Shown piece after piece: positions 4,281 to 5,803 of a stretch of 6,166 bases of DNA. Numbering within the stretch: position 1 is the first letter of the stretch; every line of letters starts with the position of its first letter. The stretch is taken from positions 1 through 6,166 of the forward strand of contig JAHJAP010000033.1 in the NCBI GenBank assembly GCA_018813805.1, written 5' to 3'. The position numbers and the translations under genes are program-made. This DNA is from Patescibacteria group bacterium (GTDB taxonomy: Bacteria > Patescibacteriota > Patescibacteriia > Patescibacteriales > GWC2-42-12). The notes under the pieces were generated by a model that was not told where the DNA came from, ran no database searches, and saw only the letters and a program-made list of their open reading frames with translations.

Positions 4281-4299
4281 TAACCCGAATCTCGTTAGG
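4281..4299 (+). repeat. IS982 terminal inverted repeat, left copy
   Basis: TAACCCGAATCTCGTTAGG. It is the exact reverse complement of 5520-5538. The transposase stop codon (TAA, 4295-4297 on the minus strand) lies inside it. Confidence 0.9.
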
Positions 4300-5456
4300 T
4301 TGAAAGTGGCTTAAAATCTAGGCTTTTAAGGAATTTCTTGAATTGGTAACCGACCAAAACCCAAATATAATGCGCGAAGTATCCTCCAATAGATCTTGGT
4401 AAAGTTGTTTCTAAATTCATTCTCAATTTTAAAACAGAAAAAATAGTTTCAATAAGCGTTCTTTTATTTAAAACCTTCTTGTTCTTTTGTCATAATTTTT
4501 TTCACTTGCTTTTACACAAGTAAAAAGATGAATCCCTTTTTCTCTCGCTTGATTAAACAAACCTTTTCCTAAATAACCAGCATCAGCAATTATCATCCCT
4601 AAAATAATAGACATGTTGCTTAATAATTTTCGTAGCGAAGTTTTTAATTTTTGAGCGAGACGAGGTTAAAAATTATGAAGAATACCGGTGGTATTTTGAA
4701 TAATTTTTAACAAGTCGTAGCCAAAAATTAAAAAATGTGGCAGAAAAGTTATCAAGCAACAGGTCTAATATTCCAATTTTTTATTAATCCTTCTCTGTCA
4801 CCTTTATTTCCAGAAGTAAAATTTGCTTTTAAAATTTCCTTTTTTCCATTACAAATTATATGAAGTTTAAAACCGAAGAACCAACCCATGGAAGACTTTC
4901 CTCTTTTTGCAAAACCAACAGCAACTTTGTGATTAAAAATTCTTTTATTTTCACAAACTTTTAATTTGGTAGAATCTGCTATTTTATAAGTTTTTTCTGG
5001 AGTTTTGTTAAGAAAAAATTTGAAAAAAAAGTCCAACATTTCTTTTCCTAAAACAGATATTTTATTTATAGATTTTATAAAATTTTGATAATTTGGTAAA
5101 TTAGGAAAGTCATCTTTGTGATAATTAACTCAGTGATAATAAAAATCTTTCTAATTTTTTTGTCCTGTCAAATTCCTAAAAATAGAAAGGGTTGCAATTT
5201 CTGCTACTGACAATTTTCCTTTTTTAGTTGGTGGATGAGTCCTATCAACTTTTTGTAAAGGGAGGTTTTTGATTAGTTTTTCTTTTATTTCTTTGATATA
5301 ATTATCACAGAAGTTATAAATAATAAGAAGTATTTCTTTTAAATTTCTAAATATTTTATCAGGGAAATTTTCTTTTTTTGTTATTTTTTATTTTGTTGAA
5401 GTAAAGTCATGGTTTTTTTGTTTAATTTTTAATAAATTGTTATCCTTGAAAATCAT
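4295..5456 (-). pseudogene. IS982-family transposase with three stops, one frameshift and one insertion
   Basis: A start at ATG (5454-5456) fits one continuous ancestral frame. In order it shows MIFKDNN, GKLSVAEIATLSIFRNLTGQ, KTYKIADSTKLKVCENKRIF, then AKRGKSSMGWFFGFKLH, SGNKGDREG, IIADAGYLGKG and NKRTLIETIFSVLK. The family's catalytic acids are probably the Asp in IADST, the Asp in ADAGY and the Glu in LIETIF. The damage is TAA at 5388-5390, TAG at 5151-5153, TGA at 5130-5132, the foldback insertion at 4605-4770, and one missing base in the A run at 4470-4473 (minus-strand TTTT should be TTTTT). The last two premature stops fall where Trp codons would suit (QKNxKDFYYHx), consistent with G-to-A changes. 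The tail ends SLDFKPLST and TAA at 4295-4297. It is inactive, but the motifs are all recognisable, suggesting fairly recent decay. Confidence 0.85.
4610..4765. mobile_element. 156-bp foldback (MITE-like) element inside the IS982 transposase
   Basis: The two halves are imperfect inverted copies meeting at AATACC-GGT-GGTATT (4681-4695). The left end reads GACATGTTGCTTAATAATTT and the right end, reversed, GACCTGTTGCTTGATAACTT. By eye, about three quarters of positions match over some 76 bp per arm, including the shared blocks TTTTTAATTTTTG and GTTAAAAATTAT. Each side is flanked by TAATA (4605-4609 and 4766-4770), a 5-bp target duplication. Deleting the element plus one TAATA joins LIKNWNI to ILGMIIADAGY in one frame, which independently proves the boundaries. 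There is no coding capacity, so movement would need a transposase supplied elsewhere. Confidence 0.85.
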
Positions 5457-5519
5457 GGCTTTATTTTAGCAAATTATTTTTCAAAATACAAAAAGCTCCT
5501 TATTTTTTAACAAATTTAG

Positions 5520-5538
5520 CCTAACGAGATTCGGGTTA
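5520..5538 (-). repeat. IS982 terminal inverted repeat, right copy
   Basis: CCTAACGAGATTCGGGTTA. It is the exact reverse complement of 4281-4299 and lies about 64 bp upstream of the transposase start. Confidence 0.9.
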
Positions 5539-5689: not shown

Positions 5690-5733
5690 TTTTGATTAAA
5701 AAATTAATTTTTGTTCTTTGACAATTTAATATA

Positions 5734-5803
5734 TTGCTTCAGAAATTTGGATTTAAAAAGATTAAATTTAAACTTAAATTTCTGGAGCAATACTCCAGAA
5801 ATT
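5734..5803 (+). promoter_or_regulatory. Leader with mutually exclusive pairings ahead of the G-tract ORF
   Basis: Segment A is TTGCTTCAGAAATTT (5734-5748). Segment B is AAATTTCTGGAGCAA (5776-5790). Segment C is CTCCAGAAATT (5793-5803). B pairs perfectly with C as an 11-bp stem with loop CAATA. B also pairs with A over 15 positions, with a single G-T wobble. A/B and B/C cannot form together. The B/C hairpin ends seven bases before the G9 ribosome-binding tract, so switching could affect translation. The pairings are read directly; function is inferred. Confidence 0.45.

Follow-up and report, generated by a model that had tools for sequence, protein, structure and literature searches.

The window, a 6,166-nucleotide stretch of a Patescibacteria group contig, carries a transposase gene interrupted by a hairpin, which raises the question of what the hairpin is and which enzyme could have moved it. 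The host is a decayed IS982-type element on the minus strand (4281..5538), recognised by its terminal repeats TAACCCGAATCTCGTTAGG (inverted repeat I2), by DDE_Tnp_1_3 matches and by translation; besides the insert, the translation shows additional stops and a frameshift, and the copy looks dead even apart from the insert. Removal of 161 bp yields a single frame (NWNI|ILGMIIADAGY) and a single DDE_Tnp_1_3 match of 120 bits (111 residues over 111 profile positions), compared with 90.8 and 23.3 bits for the separate pieces, which bears out the first-pass annotation in describing a mobile element nested in an IS982 gene and a natural reconstruction of the state before insertion. That annotation would have been contradicted by the insert being a normal part of IS982 relatives, and no other IS982 copy containing it was found in the 13 family genomes searched; it had also looked to second copies and homologous empty sites, of which the copies exist, whereas no empty IS982 site was found in the same 13 genomes, so that the pre-insertion state is read from the reading frame only.

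The insert itself (4609..4766, 158 bp, plus strand in the orientation of the conserved core described below) has no transposase gene and is recognised by its fold-back self-alignment and an RNA model match. Positions 4610-4765 form a near-complete inverted repeat, as had been reported (self-alignment score 75, versus 31 for the best of 300 mononucleotide shuffles), with an RNA minimum free energy of -57 kcal/mol, and the element scores 124.8 bits on the plus strand versus 63.8 on the minus strand with an RNA model whose training set includes the window copy. The terminal repeats, AGACATGTTGCTTAATAA on the left (4609..4626, plus strand) and AGACCTGTTGCTTGATAA on the right (4749..4766, minus strand), are each one base off the ends of a full-length insertion sequence (L113, below). 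Between them lies the conserved hairpin core (4637..4736, plus strand; the insert minus its outer 28 and 30 nt), which a tree and a sequence HMM of interiors without ends show to be homologous to cores carrying other ends.

The first-pass annotation had given the element 156 bp and a 5-bp TAATA duplication, and had regarded these borders as proven by restoration of the frame; the frame argument cannot choose between the two versions, because the same 161 bp are removed either way. A second AGAC copy in the same genome (C25:638-808) has the flanks C-AAT|AGAC...GTCT|AAT-G, and the window element therefore starts with AGAC, is 158 bp long, and is flanked by a 3-bp AAT duplication on the left (4606..4608) and right (4767..4769). 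The apparent TAATA on the left consists of a chance T, the AAT and an A belonging to the element, and that on the right of a T belonging to the element, the AAT and a chance A. Among 42 copies with AGAC-class ends, exact duplications of 3 bp were found in 24, of 2 bp in three, of 4 bp in one, of 5 bp in none, and no duplication in 14; with shuffled right flanks, 11 exact 3-bp matches were obtained on average and 18 at most, a high chance level that reflects the many targets reading AAT or ATT. The longer duplication with the shorter element is ruled out by the C25 copy together with these duplication statistics by end class. Five other copies (L089, L104, L124, L186, L065) have AAT at one flank and ATT at the other, perhaps by recombination between copies.

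On sequence grounds, the window insert is a MITE with a putative IS5-like partner. It is short and gene-free (the open reading frames reaching into the 158 bp are the broken ends of the IS982 gene and one ORF of 42 aa), has terminal inverted repeats and a duplication (AGAC...GTCT, AAT), occurs in multiple copies (in its own genome, two AGAC copies and many copies of the GGG class described below) and has ends in common with autonomous elements (L113 and L244 for the AGAC type, L265 and L300 for the GGG type). Further copies, the search for which had been proposed as a check, were found in its own and related genomes: AGAC ends have matches in 4 of the 13 family genomes, the exact end occurs in 14 of 380 class genomes, and the contig collection and these two sets of genomes together yielded at least 68 end-paired elements with AGAC-type ends, one end being perfect and the total of mismatches at most two. 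AGAC ends are also present in six IMG/VR contigs. Three cyanobacterial elements (L063, L069 and L119, 137-139 bp) have AGAC ends and 3-bp duplications and cluster apart from the Patescibacteria core.

The full-length element with the same ends, likewise proposed as a check, is a 1055-bp insertion sequence of a Portnoybacteria MAG (L113, 352-1406) with AGACCTGTTGCTTAATAA at both ends and AAT duplications, whose 306-aa ORF matches DDE_Tnp_4 (PF13359) above cut-off (77.2 bits); a 304-aa protein at another locus (L243) is 61% identical to it. Since both score below the cut-off of 140 bits of the NCBIfam IS5 model NF033581 (58.3 bits for L113, 80.2 for L243), the partner is called IS5-like only. 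Other long elements with ends of this type are L244 (1415-2480; ends AGACCTCTTGCAAAATAA, TAT duplications, DDE_Tnp_4 gene interrupted by TAA), L158 (1049 bp, duplication ATT, broken ORFs) and L106 (1001 bp, duplication AAT, broken ORFs). The ends, previously assigned to no family that could be named, match those of IS5-like insertion sequences with DDE_Tnp_4, with which the window element shares the terminal AGACYTGTTGC and the 3-bp duplications. It differs from them in having no gene and in its hairpin interior: at E ≤ 1 the hairpin model finds nothing in L113, L158 or L106, and by eye L113 and the hairpin have only about the terminal 18 bp in common.

A second class of ends, GGGnCTGTCGCC (the GGG class), goes with 5-bp duplications and is expanded in the window's genome (G000, 689 kb), which contains 187 end matches at no more than one mismatch (90 forward, 97 reverse, against 0 and 0 in the control), the highest number in a set of 361 genomes, where the runner-up has 8 + 8. 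Many of these matches are near-perfect 37- or 44-bp hairpins with 5-bp duplications (for example L276 321-357 and L277 3992-4035). In 128,771 bases of own-genome contigs, a sample that excludes the window contig and includes some contigs chosen for having hits, there are 25 GGG elements, of 161/162 bp (10), 37 bp (9), 44 bp (5) and 67 bp (1), and 19 of the 25 are flanked (1.3 on average and at most 5 in shuffles) by exact 5-bp duplications, such as GTCAA, TAAAG and AAAAG at the 161-162-bp copies in L223, L224 and L225. In four of the five 44-bp copies the first 30 nt are identical to one arm of a 161-bp copy (the right arm in three, the left in one), and the sequence then folds back over that arm.

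The GGG ends likewise have a full-length counterpart (L265, 271-1518; 1248 bp) with ends GGG[T/C]CTGTCGC[G/C]GAAAG, a TTGAA duplication and a 351-aa protein containing DUF772 and DDE_Tnp_1, which has no meaningful BLASTP match to the L113 protein (E 0.054). The best NCBIfam model for it is IS1182 at 142.1 bits, below the cut-off of 270, and it is therefore called a DUF772/DDE_Tnp_1 transposase only. Matches to this transposase occur in 8 of 379 phylum genomes; four have at least 45% identity over at least half of the protein (that of L265 itself, L299, L300 and L301), and in all four a GGG-type end lies no more than about 160 bases from the match, in a loose scan (2 mismatches in 12) that also finds matches elsewhere in loci such as L303. 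L300 is complete (1353-2558, duplication TATTA), and a fifth match above 45% identity is a 35-aa fragment (G672). A search of IMG/VR for GGG ends gave 0 hits.

Neither transposase was found in the window's genome. DDE_Tnp_4 was likewise not found in the 12 other family genomes and was present in 2 of 31 genomes with hairpins (31 tested of 62 with a hairpin or end match), and PF13359 was accordingly set aside as a marker of partners; a search for the L265-type transposase in 22 genomes, including four from the window's family, gave nothing beyond G038 itself and the fragment in G672. Because gaps in MAGs can hide multicopy insertion sequences, such absences weigh little.

The interiors of the hairpins belong to one family. 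Of the 68 end-paired elements listed, 31 are 157-161 bp long, and clustering by interior of the elements between 100 and 300 bp (single linkage, 62% identity) united 37 of them (shuffled pairs reach at most 58%). An interpretation of the length classes (50/51, 79-82, 106, 137-139 and 157-161 bp) by helical phasing was dropped, since the 157-161 peak is mostly one homologous family. With L177 added and L160 omitted, 32 of the 37 were aligned with the window copy first (alignment A1), giving 46 predicted pairs in which 93.7% of cells pair, compared with 84.5 in shuffles. Double changes affect 22 of the 46 pairs (15.8 shuffled) and 152 cells (63 shuffled), and all three values went unreached in 500 shuffles, a control inflated by kinship among the copies; slid structures gave at most 33 double-change cells versus 152, a comparison that favours the structure because it was predicted from the same alignment. 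Specific unpaired residues are also kept: G30 and A31 in 32 of 32 copies, and the facing C143 and A144 in 31 of 32, the single exception at both being the window copy.

A covariance model built from this alignment (R1), with no more than seven candidates scored per genome, has matches at E ≤ 0.001 in 46 of 379 sampled phylum genomes, including the window's own, and the best match is strong (above 58 bits) in 32 of the 46. As judged by these alignments and models, the hairpin interior is conserved across many genera of the window's phylum. Scores outside the phylum (at most 30.4 bits for two cyanobacterial loci with 137-bp elements, and 24 to 43.6 bits for archaeal MAG elements, the highest being the 106-bp L144) were rejected as evidence for the core, because the AGAC ends are part of R1, with which a 51-bp Patescibacteria MAG hairpin consisting of ends only scores 57.1 bits. 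Literature searches for MITEs or palindromic repeats of CPR, Patescibacteria or Parcubacteria, and for MITEs with different or exchangeable ends, subscription journals being outside their scope, gave, among the titles listed, none describing this family.

Homologous cores stand behind different ends. The 37 elements were supplemented by a selection of 46 R1 hits in 31 of the 46 genomes, each set of identical copies being entered as one, and among these hits the core also carries GGGTCTGTCGCCGAATAC, GAACCTCTGAAAAATG, AGGTGGTCTAAAAACTC and more. By mismatch to two consensus ends, a threshold that leaves borderline rows such as L196, L208 and L235, the 83 copies divide into 42 AGAC, 20 GGG and 21 other. 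The duplications track the end classes, with exact 3-bp duplications in 24 of 42 AGAC copies and exact 5-bp duplications in 6 of 20 GGG copies, and the 21 remaining copies have ends without a known partner, mostly without duplication. In 81 of 83 copies (all but L227 and L234) the left and right ends match each other at no fewer than 14 of 18 positions, an agreement that a small shift can lower, as the ends were set by the model match. In one genome (G162), six hairpins (L227-L232) each have a different end sequence; several of them are closely related in the core, and none has an exact duplication as long as 3 bp.

An HMM built from AGAC copies of other genomes, trimmed of their outer 28 and 30 nt, recognised, at E ≤ 0.001, 32 of the 41 copies of other classes (19 of 20 GGG and 13 of 21 other); eight gave weaker matches, and L221 escaped it. 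A further six hits at E < 0.001 lay outside the listed elements, three of them being GGG copies (L223 14875, L224 5244, L226 1390), the others L224 15, L237 2 and L238 124. Five 3-mer-block shuffles of each of 40 loci, in which palindromes are not preserved, gave 0 hits at E ≤ 0.001. The elements are indeed AT-rich and palindromic, but an origin of the core similarity in base composition and hairpin shape alone, through convergence of such palindromes, is hardly credible given these HMM results and the conserved unpaired residues.

On a tree of the 83 interiors, which rests on 103 columns and hence on few, the AGAC class requires 12 changes, at least 6 of them forced by starred branches, and the GGG class 11, at least 8 forced; AGAC and GGG considered alone require at least 6 switches. 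Both classes are clustered, with fewer changes than in any of 500 shuffles, so that ends are largely inherited with the core and switch only occasionally. Interior and end identity are correlated at r = 0.37 over all pairs; L239 and L203 are 85% identical in the interior and 28% in the ends, and own-genome L224 and L041, of a family member, 87% and 61%. The window's genome has both AGAC and GGG ends on homologous cores. The two kinds of end are alike at up to about 11 of 18 positions, and part of the change between them could be gradual.

The core is also asymmetric between strands. On the core strand of the 83 copies, G-T mismatches outnumber A-C mismatches by 331 to 103 (more G-T in 74 copies, the reverse in 5, 4 ties), the strand having been assigned by sequence similarity for 37 copies and by model score, with a possible bias, for 46; in the 46 pairs of A1 the numbers are 110 and 22. 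An excess of about 3:1, versus the equality expected of a DNA palindrome, suggests selection on a single-stranded, probably RNA, hairpin, and strand-biased mutation may also lie behind it. Rfam gave no hit for the window element at E ≤ 1, and for copies in 20 other loci no gathering score, with sub-threshold hairpins of miRNA families and an RNase P gene around one copy. That copy (G090:C2, L202 1501-1661) lies in the sense direction inside the RNase P RNA gene (69.3 bits in Rfam, below the gathering score of 100), where it is part of a 207-nt insertion in a variable helix, which we take to be P12. With ORFs called mechanically, 67 of 78 copies lie between ORFs, and the 78 hairpins have no consistent relation to the strands of neighbouring genes (four of the 83 elements had flanks too short, and L206 was skipped).

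The explanation preferred here, with a probability of roughly 0.7, is that the window insert is a transposase-less hairpin MITE with a core conserved in the phylum and variable ends, likely moved in trans by an IS5-like DDE_Tnp_4 transposase. The window hairpin would have jumped into the IS982 gene using DDE_Tnp_4 supplied in trans, and each end class would be moved by a different transposase. Were it instead a MITE of the usual kind, related to an IS5-like insertion sequence by internal deletion and having an unremarkable core that is similar through recent spread of one family, its AGAC ends and 3-bp duplications would match L113 and L244, and its end classes would cluster on the interior tree beyond chance, as observed; this account is nevertheless unlikely, as the hairpin model does not match L113, L158 or L106 and L113, by eye, shares little beyond its termini with the hairpin, the same core is found with the ends and duplication length of another transposase class, and genera that have diverged still share the core columns and the pairing. 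Lower still is the probability of a conserved family of small RNA genes, spread chiefly by other means, its outer stems drifting with compensation and AGAC and GGG duplications being a minority. The compensatory changes in 22 of 46 pairs, the G-T excess, the sense copy inside the RNase P RNA gene and the six G162 copies with different ends and no exact duplications all fit such a family, which sits poorly with the exact class-specific duplications, the resemblance of AGAC and GGG ends to those of full-length insertion sequences, the location of most copies between ORFs in no consistent strand relation, and the lack of an Rfam family at gathering score for the copies scanned.

MITEs are normally recognised by, and bound to, the ends of one transposase. 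The surprising part of the preferred reading is the conserved core with changing ends, which as a process we infer from comparison of copies: the core would persist while its ends are exchanged, probably because one arm is copied onto the other by folding back, a process seen in the 44-bp single-arm copies that may also equalise both ends of long copies, together with pick-up or drift of end sequence, and the core would be kept because the single-stranded, probably RNA, hairpin matters. A bolder version, to which we would give somewhat less than even odds, is of a hairpin parasite with a constant RNA-like core whose ends are exchangeable plugs, re-tooled through fold-back copying so as to exploit any DDE transposase at hand (IS5-like with 3-bp, DUF772-type with 5-bp duplications); if true, it would reverse the usual rule that ends define a MITE. 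A core that persists across a phylum while ends and duplication length change would mean that non-autonomous elements can switch enzyme, which would explain survival of MITEs after loss of the parent insertion sequence, as may apply to the window's genome. The conserved hairpin, which has no name, possibly functions as an RNA in these bacteria, whose genomes are very small; with 187 GGG end matches in 689 kb, its expansion in the window's genome makes the family testable.

Known systems resemble this family in part. RUP of Streptococcus pneumoniae, a 107-bp non-autonomous element with IS630-Spn1-like ends and 108 copies, reported inside more than six IS families (PMC2229807), is like the hairpin in having the ends of a known insertion sequence and in being found within insertion sequences; in the part of that account cited here it has one end type, one proposed transposase and a TA target (PMC2229807), unlike the hairpin with its core of about 155-164 bp, several end classes and 3- or 5-bp duplications. 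The MITEs QMITE1 and QMITE2 of Coxiella and Chunjie of Geobacter have size variants, and a long hairpin is the predicted fold of QMITE2 transcripts (PMC10969869). In the excerpted accounts of QMITE1 and Chunjie, variants usually keep their ends better than the remainder, and in QMITE1 ends and duplications are better conserved than the rest (PMC10969869), in contrast to the persistent core and changing ends of the hairpin family. REP and CGTC-tagged palindromes are short and of high copy number like the 37- and 44-bp GGG hairpins, and CGTC repeats, it has been suggested, could be mobilised by a broad spectrum of transposases (PMC3733652); the hairpins differ from REP in that their duplications and ends suggest DDE transposases, not RAYTs, and the 44-bp forms in being folded-back arms of a longer element.

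The window has three other features of note. A lone GGG-type end (GGGACTGTCGCCAATTAG, 2 mismatches) lies near the contig end (6091-6108), and a separate small hairpin with 26-nt arms, 85% complementary, and a 9-nt spacer is found at 5732-5792. In the region covered by 1422-1480 and 1524-2307, the direct repeat ACATCATCTAAAAAGACAC(C/T)GAAA occurs twice, beside a split ORF that may be another decayed mobile gene.
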